64,000 nucleotides of DNA from Chloroflexota bacterium. GTDB lineage: Bacteria; Chloroflexota; Limnocylindria; P2-11E. Below, one piece after another: positions 24,122-45,009 of this stretch. Made by a program: the position numbers and the translations under genes. The DNA is taken from NCBI GenBank assembly GCA_027310565.1, contig DAIDAP010000036.1, forward strand, positions 26,896-90,895, written 5' to 3'. Under the pieces are notes generated by a model, which was not told the DNA's origin, ran no database searches, and saw only the letters and a program-made list of their open reading frames with translations. Position 1 is the stretch's first letter; the number at the start of each line of letters is the position of its first letter.

Positions 24122-25453
24122 ATGCCGGACACGCGACCGCTCGCCGCGCGCATGCGGCCACGCGACCTCGATGAGCTCGTCGGCCAGGAGCACCTCGTGG
24201 GAGCGGGCCGCGTCGTCCGGAAGGCGATCGACGCCGGGCAGCCGCCGTCGATGATCCTGTGGGGTCCGCCGGGCACCGGAAAGACGACGCTCGCCGCGAT
24301 CGCCGCGAAGCGCGCACGGGCTCGGCTCGTCGCGATCTCGGCGGTATCGAGCGGAGTCGCCGACCTGCGGAAGATCATCGACGAGGCGCGCAGGCTCCGC
24401 GACATGAGCGGGCAGCGCACGGTCTTGTTCATCGACGAGATCCACCGCTTCAACAAGGCCCAGCAGGACGTGGTGCTGCCCTACGTGGAGAACGGCGACG
24501 TCGTCCTGATCGGCGCGACGACGGAGAACCCCTCGTTCGAGGTGAACTCGGCGCTGCTGTCGCGGTCCCGCGTGTACGTCCTGCGGCCGCTCGGCGAGGA
24601 GGACGTCCGCGCCATCGTCCGGCGTGCGCTGTCGGACGAGCGCGGCCTGGCGGGGCGCGCCCGGCTGGCGCCCGAGGCGGAGGCCGCGCTCGTCGCGGTG
24701 TCGAACGGCGACGCGCGCGTCGCGCTGAACGCCCTGGAGCTCGCGGCGGACGCGACCGGCGGCACGCGCGAGATCACGCTCGGCGACATCCGCGAGGCGC
24801 TCCAGCGGCGCAGCCTGCTCTACGACCGCGCCGGGGACCAGCACTACGACACGATCAGCGCGTTCATCAAGAGCGTGCGCGGATCGGATCCCGATGCGGC
24901 CCTGTACTGGCTGATGCGGATGATCGACGCGGGCGAGGACCCGATGTTCATCGCGCGGCGCATCGTCATCCTGGCGGGCGAGGACGTCGGTCTGGCCGAT
25001 CCGCAGGCGCTGGTGATCGCGAGCGCCGCGCAGCAGGCCGCGCACCTCATCGGTCTCCCCGAGGCGTACTACCCGCTGGCCGAGGCGACGGTGTACCTGG
25101 CGCTCGCGCCGAAGTCGGACTCGCTGAAGCGCGGCCTCGGCGAGCTCCAGCGCGACCTCGCCGAGACGCGCGCGGATCCGGTGCCGCTGCACCTGCGCAA
25201 CGCGCCGACCGGGCTGATGCGGCAGCTCGGATACGGGAAGGACTACCAGTACGCGCACGACTTCGAGGGTCACGTCGTCCCGGGCGAGACGTACCTGCCG
25301 GAGCCGCTGCGCGAGCGCAGGTACTACGTGCCGACGGACCTGGGCGCGGAGGCCGAGCTCAGGAGGCGGGTCGAGGCTTTGCGCCGATCCGCGCGAGCAG
25401 CAGGCCCAGCTCGAACAGGAGATACATCGGGATCGCGACCAGGGACTGATTGA
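24122..25453 (+). CDS. rarA: Replication-associated recombination protein A (RarA/MgsA)
   Basis: 443 aa AAA+ ATPase of the clamp-loader group that acts at stalled replication forks. Seen: [15 protein letters not shown], Walker [15 protein letters not shown], Walker [39 protein letters not shown] (sensor 1), then the tetramerisation region [35 protein letters not shown], and HLRNAPT...GKDYQYAHD. The last about 30 residues ([13 protein letters not shown]...) have no family counterpart and lie in the 95-nt tail-to-tail overlap with tatC. Confidence 0.95.
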
Positions 25454-26084
25454 ACGGGTCGGGGGTGGGCGTCAGGATCGCGGCGATCACGAACACCAGG
25501 AGGAAGACGTAGCGCCGCTGCCTCGTGAGCCAGGACCGCTGGACGACGCCGACGCGGACGAGCGCGAAGATGATCGCGGGCATCTCGAACACCAGACCCA
25601 CGGCGAGGATGAACGTCGTGACGAACGACAGGTACTCCGACGCCCGCAGCTGATTCTCGAACACGTCGCTCGCGAACGTGATGAGGAAGCGGACCGCGTT
25701 CGGCAGCAGGAGGAAGTAGGCGAACAGCATGCCTGCGACGAACAGCAGGAGCACGAAGGGGCCCAGCAGGAGGACGAAGCGTCGTTCGTTGGGATGGAGC
25801 GCCGGGTCGATGTACGCGAAGATCTCGTACAGGATCACCGGCATCGCGAGCGCGATCCCCGAGAACAGCGCGACGCGCATGTACGTGGTGAAGTTCTCGG
25901 TCGGGCTGAGCGACGTCAGCTTGCTCACGCCGGCCGGCAGGATGAGCAGGCGGATGATGTCGGTGGTGAAGAAGAACGCGATGGCGGTGGTCACGACGAC
26001 TGCGATGGCCGCGACCATGAGGCGGTCGCGCAGCTCGGTCAGGTGCTGGATCAGCGAGAGCTCTTTGTCGCGCGAAGCGCTCAT
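25359..26084 (-). CDS. tatC: Sec-independent protein translocase TatC
   Basis: 241 aa from the ATG at 26084 ([22 protein letters not shown]). Integral membrane receptor for twin-arginine signal peptides, with six helices. Family text: the N-terminal [52 protein letters not shown], a following helix pair [38 protein letters not shown], and [21 protein letters not shown]. TatA/B genes are not in the window. Its 3' end overlaps the rarA 3' end by 95 nt. It would export Tat substrates such as the tail-tube-like protein at 42.3 kb. Confidence 0.96.
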
Positions 26085-39685: not shown

Positions 39686-40671
39686 TGCCGGCGCGCGCCG
39701 CGACGCCGTTCGACGCGCCGCGCATCTCCGCGCTCCTCGAGCGGTCGCTGCGCTCGCCGGAGAGCGTGGTCGCCTCCGCCCTGCCGGCGCCGTTCGCGGG
39801 CGGCGCCGTCCCGGGGCTGCGCGCGCTGGGGCTCGGCATCTTCGGGCTCGCGGGCGGCCGCCTGCGTGTCTACCTCGACGAGGTGCGCGGACAGCTGCGC
39901 AGCGTCGCGCTGGTGTACGGCGGGAGGCGCGCGGAGTGGGTGATCCTCATGCTCGCCTCGCTGCCCGAGCCCGGCGGCGCGGACAGCGCGTTCCGGCTCC
40001 TCTCCGGCGTCAGCGGCGCGGCGGCGCGCGCGGGCATGCATCGCCTGTTCGCCGCGGCGCCCGACGACGCGATGCCGCGCGAGACCTTCTTCCAGACCGG
40101 CTTCTACTCGTACACGCGCGAGACCTGGTACGCCGCGAGCGGCATGCGCCTCGCGCCGGCGCGCCGCGAGGGCTGGCGCGCCGCGACGGGGACCGACGCG
40201 CACGACCTGTTCCGCTTCTACACGGCGACGACGCCGCACGCGGTCCAGCGTGCGGAGCAGCTCTCGGTGCCCGACTTCGACCTCTCGCGCCGCGGCGGCG
40301 CGTACGATCCGCCGCACCTCAGCGGTGGCAACCCGCTCGCGATGCGCCGCGCGCTCGCGCTCGTGGACGGGGACGAGCGGACGACGCGCGCGGTCGCCCT
40401 CGCGTTCGCGGGCCGCGAGCGCCACCCGCACGTCGTGAAGGTGCGCACGCGCGAGGGCGACGTGGACCTGGCGCGCGACCTCGTGCGCGCGAGCGTGCGC
40501 GCGCTTGAGCCAGACCGCCCCGTCGCCGCACCGGTGCGCTCGTACGAGGAGCACGTCGGCCGTGCGCTGCTCGCGGAGGGCTTCCGCGACCTCGCGACCA
40601 CGATGCTCTTCGTCAAGGAGCTGGCCGTTCGCGTCGAGGAGCCGGCGTTCGCGCCCGCGGTGGTCCGCTAG
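39685..40671 (+). CDS. GNAT-like acetyltransferase, divergent
   Basis: 328 aa from the ATG at 39685, coupled to pdxT by TGATG; the track start is upstream in antisense text. The N-terminus [27 protein letters not shown] and the middle section ALVYGGRRAEWVILMLASLPEPGG...RLLSGVSGAAARAGMHRLFAAAPDD...FFQTGFYSYTRE resemble GNAT N-acyltransferase text. The Arg/Gly-rich acetyl-CoA loop is not clear. Two related domains may be present, since the C-terminal HVVKVRTREGDVD...FVKELAVRV also looks like a GNAT core. Substrate unknown. Confidence 0.55.
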   Translation: MPARAATPFDAPRISALLERSLRSPESVVASALPAPFAGGAVPGLRALGLGIFGLAGGRLRVYLDEVRGQLRSVALVYGGRRAEWVILMLASLPEPGGADSAFRLLSGVSGAAARAGMHRLFAAAPDDAMPRETFFQTGFYSYTRETWYAASGMRLAPARREGWRAATGTDAHDLFRFYTATTPHAVQRAEQLSVPDFDLSRRGGAYDPPHLSGGNPLAMRRALALVDGDERTTRAVALAFAGRERHPHVVKVRTREGDVDLARDLVRASVRALEPDRPVAAPVRSYEEHVGRALLAEGFRDLATTMLFVKELAVRVEEPAFAPAVVR

Positions 40672-40683
40672 CGTCAGGAGGCT

Positions 40684-40980
40684 CTAGCCGCCCGCGATCG
40701 CGCCCAGCACGATGAACGGCTCCTCGCCACGGCCGACCGCGGACGGCAGCGGCGCATCCGGAGGATCGTGCGTGAGGTCCTGCTCGCACGCGAAGAAGCG
40801 CAGGAAGGGCCGGCGCCGCTGGGTCGTGTGGTCGCGGATCGTGCCACGCAGCATCGGATAGGCGGCCTCGAGCGCGTCGAGCACGGAGCGCTGCGTCACC
40901 GCGCCGTCGACGCGGAGCGTGACCTCGCTCGCCACGCCCGCCAGGGTGCGCAGATGGTGCGGAAGGACCACGCGGATCAC
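40684..40980 (-). CDS. MoaD/ThiS-like small protein with C-terminal Gly-Gly
   Basis: 98 aa from the GTG at 40980 in a GTGA overlap with the Asp-box gene; absent from the track. Starts [42 protein letters not shown] and ends [13 protein letters not shown]. The beta-grasp pattern and the terminal GG fit MoaD/ThiS sulfur carriers, but RTLAG and the length are those of the group paired with sialidase-like propellers in actinobacteria rather than of the molybdopterin enzyme. Activation by an E1-like enzyme is possible and not visible here. Confidence 0.75.
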
Positions 40981-42164
40981 CGGAGCGTCTGCACCTCCAC
41001 CGACAGCACCGCCGGGAGATCGCGCACGATGGCCGACCAGGTGTCGCCCGCGTCGGCCGACGCATAGACCTGCCCGCCGGTGGTCCCGAAGTACACCCCG
41101 CACGCGTCCAGCGAGTCCACGGCCATGGCGTCGCGCAGGACGTTCACGTAGCAGTGGCGCTGCGGCAGCCCCCTCGTGAGCGCCTCCCATTCGTTGCCGC
41201 CGGTGCGGCTGCGGTAGACCCTGAGCCTGCCGTCGGGCGGGAAGTGCTCGGCGTCGCTCTTGATCGGGACCACGTAGATCGTCTCCGGCTCGTTCGCGTG
41301 GACGTCGATGACGAATCCGAAGTCGGTCGGCAGATCCCCGCTCACCTCCGTCCACGAGTCGCCCGCGTCGTCGCTGCGCAGCACGTCCCAGTGCTTCTGC
41401 ATGAACAGCACGTTCGGACGAGAGCGGTGCATCGCGATGCGATGGACGCAGTGGCCGACCTCCGCCGTCGGGTCGGGGAGGTACTGCGACCGCAGACCGC
41501 GGTTTATCGGCTTCCAGCTCCGGCCGCCGTCGTCGGTGCGGAACGCGCCGGCGGACGAGATCGCCACGAACAGACGGTCGCGATCTTCGGGATCCGCGAT
41601 GATCGTGTGCAGGCACAGGCCGCCGGCGCCGGGCTGCCACTGCGGCCCCGTCCCGTGCCCGCGCAATCCCGCGACCTCGCTCCAGGTGCGTCCGCCGTCG
41701 GTCGAGCGGAAGAGCGCGGCGTCCTCGACGCCCGCGAGGACGGTGTCGGGGTCGGTGAGCGAGGGCTCGAGATGCCAGACGCGCTTGAACTCCCACGGCC
41801 GCTGCGACCCGTCGTACCACTGGTGCGTGGTGAGCGCGCTGCCGGTGGCGGCAGAGGCGTCGTACACGAACTTGTTGCTCTCGCCCTTCGGCATGCCGTC
41901 GGGCGTGGTCGTCGGCTCGCCGCGGGGCGTCCCCGGCTGGTGCCAGGTCTTCCCGCCGTCGTCAGAGCGCTGGACGATCTGTCCGAACCAGCTGCTCGTC
42001 TGCGATGCGTAGAGGCGGTCAGGATCCACCGGCGAGCCCTTGAGGTGGTAGATCTCCCAGCCCGCGAAGTGCGGACCGCCGACGGTCCAGTCCGTCCGCC
42101 TGCCGTCGGACTCGAGGATGAACGCGCCCTTCCGGGTGCCGACCAGGACGCGGACTCCACTCAT
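40977..42164 (-). CDS. Asp-box (BNR/VPS10-like) beta-propeller protein
   Basis: 395 aa, ATG behind GAGGGGGA. Six or more Asp-box turns of the type SxDxGx[63 protein letters not shown]. This is a six- or seven-bladed propeller of the sialidase/sortilin repeat class. There is no signal peptide. The catalytic Arg triad of sialidases is not evident, so I do not call it a sialidase. A family with this domain and a downstream MoaD-like gene is common in actinobacteria and Chloroflexota, of unknown function. Confidence 0.83.
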
Positions 42165-42271
42165 GTCGCTCCCCCTCGCATGCGAGATCAGAGAACGGGA
42201 TGACTATCGCACGCGACGAGCGCTCCGCTCGATGCCGCGCGGAGGCGGCTGCCGGGACGGCGGTCGCTCGG

Positions 42272-43363
42272 CTAGCCGCTCGGCGGGGGCGACGGTGTCG
42301 GCGACGGTGTCGGCGCGCTCCCGCCGCCGAGGTACGTGAAGGCCATCCGCTCGCAGTAGAGCGAGAACGAGACCTTCCCCGGCGAGTCGTCGGTATCGAG
42401 CGTGTCGTCACTCGCGGCGAAGATGCCGAGACCGACGAAGTCGATGCGCAGAAGCTCGCCCTTCAGGTCCGACGTGAAGAACGTGAGGCTGCCGGTCTTC
42501 TCCCGGCCCTGGTCGTTGTTGCCCCTGATGACGAAGTCCTCGTGCCAGTCGTACCACGTCTGCGCGCTCGACTGCGCGATAGTGACCACGAGATTGGGGA
42601 CCTCGACGGTCCCGGGCTCGCGCTCGTAGTCGCGCTGCTCGCCGATGGGATTCTCGACCACCTTCTGCTTCAGGGTGAACGCGTCGATCTTCGCGACGCG
42701 CGAGGTGTCCAGCCCGTCGATCTGCAGCCGGAAGTTCGACGGAAGCCACTGCTTCTGCCTGCCCCTCGCGACGGTGGGGAGGGCCAGCGTCGCGTTTGGC
42801 GGCGCCACCTGCGTGTACGCCGGGGAGAACCGGATCGTCAGGTAGGCGGGCTCCTTCGAGCTGCCGTCGCAGGCGGGGATGGTGGTCTCGGTGATGAGCG
42901 CACCGTAGAACTTCCGCGTCGCCAGCGGCCTGCTGTTGTAGTCGGCTGCGACGATCTCGCCGTCCTTGCGCAGGGATTCCATCGACCACGACGCCGCGAT
43001 CCAGTCGTAGACCGCCTTCGACATCGAGAAGCCGATCTGCATCGAGATGTCCTCGTACTTCACGCCGGCGATGTGCTTGCGCACGACGCCGTCGGCCCCG
43101 ACCTTCTCGTTCACGACCTCCGCGACCGCGTGCCCGCCCTCGACGTCCTGGAGCCAGCCGACGTCGACGTTGTCGATCGCCAGCATGAACTTGCCGGCGC
43201 TATAGGAGCGTCCCGAGACGGGGTTCCCGTCGGCGCGCGGGGCGTCCGGATCGACCGCGGCCGCGACCTTGCCCGCGCCCCAGATCGCGGCCCCGAGCGC
43301 GACCCCGGTCGCGCCCGCGGCGGTGCCGAGGAAGCGGCGTCGCGAAGTCCCCGTGCTCTCCAT
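42272..43363 (-). CDS. Tat-exported T4 gp19-like tail-tube family protein
   Basis: 363 aa from the ATG at 43363 behind GGGGAGG; the track start belongs to antisense text. Twin-arginine signal: STGTSRRRFLGTAAGATGVA with a hydrophobic stretch ending near GKVAAA. The mature part opens SYSAGKFMLAIDNVDVGWLQDVEGG, which is the tail-tube family text (gp19, PF06841). A duplicated gp19-like half follows near NLVVTIAQSSAQTWYDWHEDFVIRG. The C-terminus is a Gly/Ser/Pro-rich tail (GGGSAPTPSPTPSPPPSG). Tail tubes are normally cytosolic; Tat targeting would place it outside. No other tail or injection-system gene is nearby. Function unknown. Confidence 0.72.
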   Translation of the reverse strand: MESTGTSRRRFLGTAAGATGVALGAAIWGAGKVAAAVDPDAPRADGNPVSGRSYSAGKFMLAIDNVDVGWLQDVEGGHAVAEVVNEKVGADGVVRKHIAGVKYEDISMQIGFSMSKAVYDWIAASWSMESLRKDGEIVAADYNSRPLATRKFYGALITETTIPACDGSSKEPAYLTIRFSPAYTQVAPPNATLALPTVARGRQKQWLPSNFRLQIDGLDTSRVAKIDAFTLKQKVVENPIGEQRDYEREPGTVEVPNLVVTIAQSSAQTWYDWHEDFVIRGNNDQGREKTGSLTFFTSDLKGELLRIDFVGLGIFAASDDTLDTDDSPGKVSFSLYCERMAFTYLGGGSAPTPSPTPSPPPSG

Positions 43364-43410
43364 CTCGTACCTCCCCAGGGCGGCCGGTTGCCGGGAGGCT
43401 AGCACGGCGC

Positions 43411-44928
43411 TCAGGCGTTCAAGCGCAGGAAGCCGCGGGACAACAGGTGTCGCGCGAGCCGGGCCGCCTCGGCGAGGAAGTCTTCGACCGGCGCGCCGTC
43501 GGCCGCGAACCGCCCCGCCGCCGCGCGGGCCGCTTCCTCGAGCGTCCGCGCCCCGTCGAGCTTCGTGAGGAGCTCCGCGCCGAACGCCTCGATCTCGGTA
43601 CGGAGCCGCAACCCCTCCTCGAGCCGGAGGCTCGCGGCCTCCACCACGAAAGCCCCATCGCGCAGGCGCAGCGTCTGGTCGAGGCGGTGCGCGGGCTCGA
43701 CGGCGAGCACGGTGGCGAGCAGCGCGACGTCGTCGTGGCTCGCGAGGTAGTCCTCCGCGGCGATGAGGCGCCCGATCTGCGCGCCGGAGGCCGGCTCGCG
43801 CTGGCCGTTCGCGTCGTCCGACCGCGTCCAGTGCGTCTTCGCGGCGCGTCTTCTCAGGATGACGGCCCCGTAGCCGAGGGCCGCGTATCCGAGCTCGCGA
43901 TACGAGGCCGTCCAGCGATCCAGCGCGCGCTCGTAGGCGGTGGGGTCGGGGGCGCGCTGGAGCGGCTCGTTCCACGTCGCGGCGTATCCGAGCGGCGTCG
44001 CGCTCGCCTGGTGGATGAGCCACGCGTCGCAGCCGAGGTCGCGGACCCATGCCTCGAGCGGCGCTTCCCAGCGCGCGGCGGCGGGCATGCCCCACGACAC
44101 GAGCACGAACGCGCGGCCGGCCTCCGCGAGGTGCGCCGCGGCCTCGCGCACGACCATGCGGCTGACACCGTCGCCGCGCATGCCGCTGTCGCGGAAGGCG
44201 ACGACGTTGTCCGGCGAGATCACGAACGGCGGGTTGGATACGACGAGGTCGAACTTCTCCCCACGGACGGGCTCGAAGAACGAGCCCTGCCGGCACTCGA
44301 CGTTCCGGACCCCGTTCAGCGCGGCGTTGAAGCGCGTGTACTCGAGCGCGCGCGGATTGATGTCGCAGGCGACCACGCGGTCCGCATGCGTCGCGGCGAG
44401 CACGCTCTGTATGCCGCAGCCGCAGCCGACGTCGAGCACGTCGCGGACGCGATCGCGCACCGTGAGGCTCGCGAGGAACACCGACGACGTCGTCACGCCC
44501 ATGACGTGGTCGGCCGGGACGTCGGGATCGCTCTCGAGGGTCGCATCGCAGGCGAAGAGGAAGCCGCTCGAGGGCAGCAGCCGCACGCCGGAGCGCACAC
44601 GATCGCCGTCGCGCCGCAGCAGACCGAGGCGCAGCGCGCGCTCGAGGGGCAGCGGTGCGAGCGCGCGGCGCGGATGCTCGGCCTCGACGTCCACCGAGAT
44701 GAGGAAGAGGCGGAGCAGGTCCGCCAGGCGGTCGTCCTGCGGCAGCAGGCGGAGGAGGACCGGCACGTCCTCCGGGCGGGGCGTGAGGCGCTCACCCTCC
44801 GCTCGGAGCATGACCCGCATGTGCTCCGGGTCGTACGCGGCCGAGACGACGGCCTCGCGGAGCAGCGTGATGCCCTCCCGGTCCGAGCCGTCGAGCGTCA
44901 CCGGACGTTCCGTGCCGACCCGCTCCAC
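43411..44928 (-). CDS. Class I SAM methyltransferase with N-terminal extension
   Basis: 505 aa from the GTG at 44928 (leaderless, see next entry). N-terminal about 140 residues ([35 protein letters not shown]) are helical; the central domain has SAM motif DVLDVGCGCGIQSVLAATHADRVVACDINPRAL and the NPPF motif VSNPPFVISPDNV, as in glutamine/adenine N-methyltransferases related to HemK. The C-terminal about 180 residues are an added domain with no recognised fold. This architecture is known in actinobacteria as a DUF7059-type methyltransferase; substrate unknown. Divergent from the R3H/AAA gene. Confidence 0.82.
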   Translation of the reverse strand: MERVGTERPVTLDGSDREGITLLREAVVSAAYDPEHMRVMLRAEGERLTPRPEDVPVLLRLLPQDDRLADLLRLFLISVDVEAEHPRRALAPLPLERALRLGLLRRDGDRVRSGVRLLPSSGFLFACDATLESDPDVPADHVMGVTTSSVFLASLTVRDRVRDVLDVGCGCGIQSVLAATHADRVVACDINPRALEYTRFNAALNGVRNVECRQGSFFEPVRGEKFDLVVSNPPFVISPDNVVAFRDSGMRGDGVSRMVVREAAAHLAEAGRAFVLVSWGMPAAARWEAPLEAWVRDLGCDAWLIHQASATPLGYAATWNEPLQRAPDPTAYERALDRWTASYRELGYAALGYGAVILRRRAAKTHWTRSDDANGQREPASGAQIGRLIAAEDYLASHDDVALLATVLAVEPAHRLDQTLRLRDGAFVVEAASLRLEEGLRLRTEIEAFGAELLTKLDGARTLEEAARAAAGRFAADGAPVEDFLAEAARLARHLLSRGFLRLNA

Positions 44929-44935
44929 CGGACAG

Positions 44936-44941
44936 ACGATA
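44936..44941 (-). promoter_or_regulatory. -10 hexamer TATCGT, 7 nt before the methyltransferase gene
   Basis: TATCGT on the minus strand ends 7 nt before the GTG at 44928, with no Shine-Dalgarno sequence, and so fixes the start of this gene. Confidence 0.45.
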
Positions 44942-45009
44942 GGGCGGCCCTCGATATGCTTGAGTACGGATGCGTGGACTCTCGCGCATGGGCGGTGGAT
45001 GACGTGACC

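Follow-up and report, generated by a model that had tools for sequence, protein, structure and literature searches.

The usual view of tail-tube proteins is that they belong to injection machines put together in the cytosol. The tubes of extracellular contractile injection systems (eCIS; CIS1 and CIS5; TIGR02241 and PF06841) are single-domain proteins without signals, and their genes stand beside those for sheath and baseplate. In the T5 protein pb6 the tube domain is duplicated; every two subunits are fused, giving a trimeric ring of six pseudo-subunits, and polymerisation of pb6 increases at high salt and low pH (PMC8718954). The protein analyzed here, P0001, is encoded in a 64-kb stretch of Chloroflexota DNA (the window) and resembles both systems in part. 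Each of its domains belongs by sequence to the superfamily of the eCIS tubes and is close to them by fold (TMt about 0.7 to the PVC, AlgoCIS and Streptomyces CIS tubes), but the protein is neither single-domain nor signal-less, nor is it encoded next to sheath and baseplate genes. Like the major tail proteins of T5 (pb6) and P74-26, it has two tube domains per chain in a similar relative placement (TMq 0.53-0.61). Unlike these, it is accompanied by no phage genes and carries an export-type signal; its identity to them is about 9-12%, and its domain sequences are closer to the contractile gp19/TIGR02241 tubes.

Two further groups deserve comparison. The lone Hcp proteins (PF05638) of Chloroflexota also have the tube fold with no contractile machine in view, and some of them bear signals and some stand behind the same methyltransferase family as P0001; they differ in belonging to another Pfam family, in being mostly single-domain and in that the members found in cassettes lack signals. 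Collagen-like bacterial surface proteins are approached by a relative of P0001 (G012:C62) that combines a Sec-type signal, PF01391 repeats and tandem gp19 domains, whereas P0001 itself has no collagen stalk.

The first-pass annotation had placed the protein at 42272-43363, and these positions were confirmed exactly: the gene (contig C21, minus strand) is a clean ORF of 363 codons with its ATG at 43363, behind a good ribosome-binding site. The features of the gene, and two others in the window on which the argument draws, are as follows.

43370..43376, minus strand: Shine-Dalgarno-like GGGGAGG, 6 nt before the ATG of the tube gene (sequence)
42272..43363, minus strand: tandem tail-tube-like protein P0001, 363 aa (ORF and translation; PF06841; full-length homologues in G013 and G001, 36-37% identity)
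43256..43363, minus strand: putative Tat-type signal, residues 1-36, with SRRRFLG, a weakly hydrophobic core and AxA (motif; TIGR01409 score; homologue in G013; TatC in the genome)
42818..43207, minus strand: predicted tail-tube domain 1, residues about 53-182 (tube-only HMM 61.3 bits, i-E 1e-17; PF06841; AF2 pLDDT about 90)
42332..42751, minus strand: predicted tail-tube domain 2, residues about 205-344 (tube-only HMM 28.1 bits, i-E 1.8e-7; AF2 fold; aligned to the T5 and P74-26 tubes)
42275..42331, minus strand: Gly, then a Pro/Ser/Thr-rich C-terminal tail, residues 345-363 (sequence; not conserved in homologues)
43411..44898 (start codon anywhere within 44898-44928), minus strand: methyltransferase DUF7059-MTS-DUF7782 with an NPPF motif (Pfam; paralogues precede Hcp genes)
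25428..26048, minus strand: TatC, core of the Tat translocase (PF00902, E 7.4e-66)

A single gp19-like tail-tube body had been proposed for this protein. The family assignment held, but two such domains are present in tandem. PF06841 (gp19) matched residues 58-177 (56 bits and E 4.2e-15 for the whole protein, cut-off 28 bits), and a further region in this frame was matched more weakly (19 bits, E 0.0017). TIGR02241 gave E 1.2e-11 and 44.5 bits, under its cut-off of 62.4. PF05638 (Hcp) was absent from the Pfam matches up to E 1, and the related TssD family PF17642 reached E 0.011, below its cut-off. To avoid circularity we left all members of the protein's own family out of a tube-only HMM, which was based on 71 ordinary single-domain tubes from other loci. 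This profile matched domain 1 and, at residues 207-311, domain 2; among 1000 shuffled sequences the highest score was 9.1 bits.

The tail-tube claim had been staked beforehand on structure prediction, and the predicted structure does contain the fold, in two copies, as judged by AlphaFold2 and by Foldseek against solved tubes. A monomer model of residues 45-348 obtained with a 51-row alignment had a pLDDT of 88 and a pTM of 0.85, and consists of a unit of strands, a helix and further strands that occurs two times. With the three homologues alone the pLDDT was 36; this was remedied by adding 46 single-domain tubes and the collagen-linked and Sec-signalled relatives. Because MAFFT put all single-domain tubes on domain 1, the alignment is deep just for that domain, and domain 2 is aligned in four sequences only. 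Foldseek matched the model to solved tubes with a probability of 1.00, and the top seven PDB chains were siphophage tube or tube-like tail proteins of about 290-470 residues, among them those of T5, its relative DT57C, P74-26 and SH-Ab15497, with alignments of 328-368 columns and a TMq of 0.53-0.61. Next came the single-domain tubes of eCIS, T4 and Hcp, which reached a TMq of at most 0.40, with TMt up to 0.76. Since a lone domain never exceeds a TMq of about 0.4, the tandem-tube matches must superpose the two domains jointly, and the relative placement of these domains thus resembles that in tandem tubes. Together, the profile matches and the predicted fold show that P0001 carries a tandem duplication of the tail-tube domain.

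The N-terminus of P0001 had been read as a canonical twin-arginine signal, and as a sequence feature this reading stands: SRRRFL lies at residue 7 and AxA at 34, and the stretch between them is weakly hydrophobic (15-residue Kyte-Doolittle maximum 1.43, versus 2.35-2.47 in Sec-type relatives). The NCBIfam TAT profile TIGR01409 scored 14.9 bits against a cut-off of 16.7. The motif recurs as STRRRFLGTAAGVTGAL in the G013 homologue, and no RR motif was present in any of the 71 ordinary single-domain tubes. Two other apparent Tat-plus-gp19 proteins (L014 and L015) were rejected, as their likeness to P0001 is confined to the signal. P0001 is likely exported, and the Tat pathway is the probable route in this species.

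A search for paralogues and their neighbors in Chloroflexota had been proposed; it returned tandem homologues within the GTDB family of the window only (G013, G001 and G012:C62). In the genome of the window (G000), the gene for P0001 is the sole gp19 gene. The G013 and G001 proteins are 36% and 37% identical to P0001, with the signal motifs STRRRFLG and SRKRFL, respectively, the latter having RK in place of RR. The third (L058:7863-9269) is about 20% identical and consists of a Sec-type signal, collagen-like GPTG repeats and two divergent gp19 domains (PF06841 E 3e-8; PF01391, collagen, E 1e-7); it scored 39 bits against a profile of the other three tandem proteins, versus 0.7 for shuffles. 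G012 also encodes a single-domain CIS5-like tube protein of 169 aa with a Sec-type signal (G012:C173, L004:1444-1950; TIGR02241 E 1.4e-39). Its gene stands outside any injection-system locus, as does the G015:C39 counterpart (L057:8070-8533), which is split by a frameshift, either real or from assembly. Genes of the gp19 type are patchy in the family, occurring in 5 of the 28 genomes when the frameshifted single-domain copy is included. All four tandem proteins and the single-domain one have export-type N-termini, of three kinds. As the tandem proteins carry RR, RR, RK and Sec-type signals, the common trait is an export-type N-terminus, and the route of export varies. The expectation that these proteins must be folded before export therefore cannot hold family-wide.

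The tube proteins of G000 and G013 are 36% identical, compared with 74-93% for the proteins of the flanking genes, and so have either diverged fast or been replaced in place. Rapid divergence relative to neighbors is usual for exposed surface proteins and would fit a secreted adhesive or ligand-binding protein, in which the tube fold would be a stable beta-sandwich head that forms no rings and of which the collagen-stalked relative would be the archetype. The joining of collagen repeats to tandem gp19 domains in G012:C62 and the Pro/Ser tail of P0001 point the same way, the tail having been noted in the first-pass annotation and being indeed present, but missing from the homologues. We nevertheless consider this explanation unlikely: the structural match to ring-forming tandem tubes is full-length, with both domains superposed together, and a collagen trimer would suit a trimeric ring just as well. 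As collagen helices too are trimeric, the collagen-stalked relative is in keeping with a trimer. By analogy with pb6, a trimeric ring of P0001 itself is conceivable, at a little under even chances.

The METHYLTRANSFERASE link concerns the methyltransferase gene, which lies directly upstream of the tube gene on the same strand, at a distance of 47 bp. Four copies of this methyltransferase family are present among the 28 genomes of the family, and all four precede a gene for a tube-fold protein. The other three copies precede Hcp (PF05638) genes. The G000:C15 cassette (L123:4492-8160) comprises the methyltransferase, a small Tat-like dirigent-like protein and two Hcp genes, in a genome without PF04984; G013:C80 (L125:1-2781) has the same gene order, also with two Hcp genes; and G005:C104 (L124:7256-9951) has the methyltransferase, a related dirigent-like ORF and one Hcp gene. 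The Hcp proteins of the cassettes have no signal of their own. In another Chloroflexota family (G255, L129:4498-7112) a dirigent-like gene with a Tat-like N-terminus and an Hcp gene occur with the methyltransferase gene convergent to them, and the cassette thus extends beyond the family of the window. Elsewhere in Chloroflexota, lone Hcp-family proteins with signal peptides or a lipoprotein-type signal were also seen (L115, L116, L119 and L120).

The adjacency of this methyltransferase to a gp19 gene is found in G000 only, being absent in G013, G001 and G012. The three Hcp cassettes of the family probably go back to a single ancestral arrangement, and the adjacency in the window therefore counts as one independent coincidence, of the order of 1 in 1000 by our own estimate, which takes 2-3 tube genes in a total of perhaps 2,800. 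This is suggestive of a functional association, without proving it, and a functional link between P0001 and the methyltransferase can be proposed only tentatively. It also suggests that tubes of the gp19 and Hcp types are interchangeable as the tube component of a small methyltransferase-tube cassette. In actinobacteria (Tsukamurella; Nonomuraea) genes of this methyltransferase family stand alone, so the link to tubes is not a trait of the entire methyltransferase family.

A methyltransferase directly upstream is cytoplasmic in type, which would agree with P0001 itself being a cytoplasmic protein that works with it inside the cell, its Tat-like stretch being a false positive; the TAT score slightly under the curated cut-off and the signal-less Hcp proteins of the cassettes would be expected as well. 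Against this stand the export-type N-termini, of three kinds, on all four tandem proteins and the single-domain one, and the Tat-like N-terminus of the protein that accompanies the cassette Hcp genes, and we regard a cytoplasmic P0001 as improbable.

The claim that no sheath or tube partner is nearby proved true on a wider scale, with one qualification. The draft genome G000 (2.79 Mb, 38 contigs, 97.5% complete) contains no match to the sheath family PF04984 and no second gp19 gene; it does hold two Hcp-type tube genes, on a contig other than that of the window (C15). Genomes of a sister family in the same class served as positive controls and hold eCIS loci of the ordinary make-up, two tubes plus a sheath. 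No baseplate, spike or tape-measure gene adjoins the tube gene, whose neighbors are pdxS, pdxT and genes for GNAT-like, ThiS/MoaD-like, BNR, methyltransferase and R3H/AAA proteins, and tmk, all of them housekeeping or unrelated genes. Searches of phage (50,697 records), plasmids (72,556 records) and, in two scans, IMG/VR gave no similar sequence, and a scan of 84,980 genomes added no tandem relatives. Distant members may have escaped these searches, since it took PF06841 to detect the collagen-linked relative, at only 20% identity. A match on a Deinococcus plasmid was rejected as a relative, being an ordinary tube inside a sheath/baseplate cluster. We are almost certain that P0001 is an orphan protein with a tandem tube fold.

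In both G000 and G013 the tube gene lies between the GNAT-like and R3H/AAA ATPase genes. In the congeners G012, G014 and G015 this gap measures about 30-295 bp and has no gp19 gene, and several other family members have different DNA there. The site is variable, yet the tube gene occupies it in at least two species. In the window the gap spans about 40670-45000 and can be described as a variable insertion site that is nearly closed in some relatives. It also contains, downstream of the tube gene and in its orientation, a gene for a BNR/sortilin-like propeller followed by a ThiS/MoaD-like gene (40684-42164, minus strand), a pair that is missing from the matching site in G013. No full match to the methyltransferase was found at E 1e-15 in the gap of other genomes; short matches there were discounted, as they show 32-37% identity over short stretches only.

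The location of the gene and the absence of phage, plasmid and viral matches argue against a prophage remnant, and the notion that P0001 is left over from a decaying prophage or eCIS that lost its other genes, with an incidental signal-like N-terminus, is the least probable of those considered: eCIS with gp19 tubes are common in the sister family of the same class, so that a donor is at hand, and gp19-type genes are patchy and in one case frameshifted, but the ORF is intact and preceded by a good ribosome-binding site, homologues at only 36-37% identity have retained both the tandem architecture and the signal, one chromosomal site is used in two species, the genome has neither sheath nor other gp19 gene, and the phages, plasmids and viral contigs searched hold no relative.

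The explanation that we favor, with slightly better than even confidence, is that P0001 is a tail-tube protein that has been domesticated and has ceased to work in an injection machine, is exported in folded form and may make a trimeric ring outside. The first-pass annotation, too, had raised the possibility of a tube or ring protein repurposed for the cell exterior, and this is still the best reading, except that over its full length the protein resembles the T5 and P74-26 tandem tubes rather than one gp19 ring subunit. P0001 would fold in the cytoplasm, its SRRRFLG motif would be recognised by TatC, and it would cross the membrane already folded, with cleavage after AxA near residue 36. Chloroflexota are usually described as single-membraned, and Tat export would therefore put the protein outside the cell. 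There, three chains, contributing six tube domains, would assemble into a pseudo-hexameric ring as in T5 pb6; our best guess is that this ring then serves as a structural or binding element of the surface. The methyltransferase may modify the protein of its cassette before export.

A wider proposal can be drawn from these loci, which we rate as decidedly unlikely as it stands: soil Chloroflexota would have domesticated both tandem gp19 and Hcp proteins as free-standing secreted rings, served by a dedicated methyltransferase with an NPP[FY] motif and exported folded by Tat, the gp19 pairs through their own signal and Hcp perhaps by piggy-backing on the adjacent Tat-signalled dirigent-like partner. 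If true, part of a contractile machine would have been turned into an extracellular device without contraction. The tube fold and the families involved are already known; within the open-licence literature, however, neither an exported gp19 protein, an exported tandem tube without a machine nor a methyltransferase-Hcp cassette was found described. An export signal, the lack of a machine, a collagen-stalked sister and a methyltransferase shared with lone Hcp proteins together point to a free-standing extracellular use of the tube fold. For bacteria that have no type VI system, this would place lone 'Hcp' annotations in a context that can be tested, and natural tandem tubes are candidates for use as scaffolds in the design of pores and rings.
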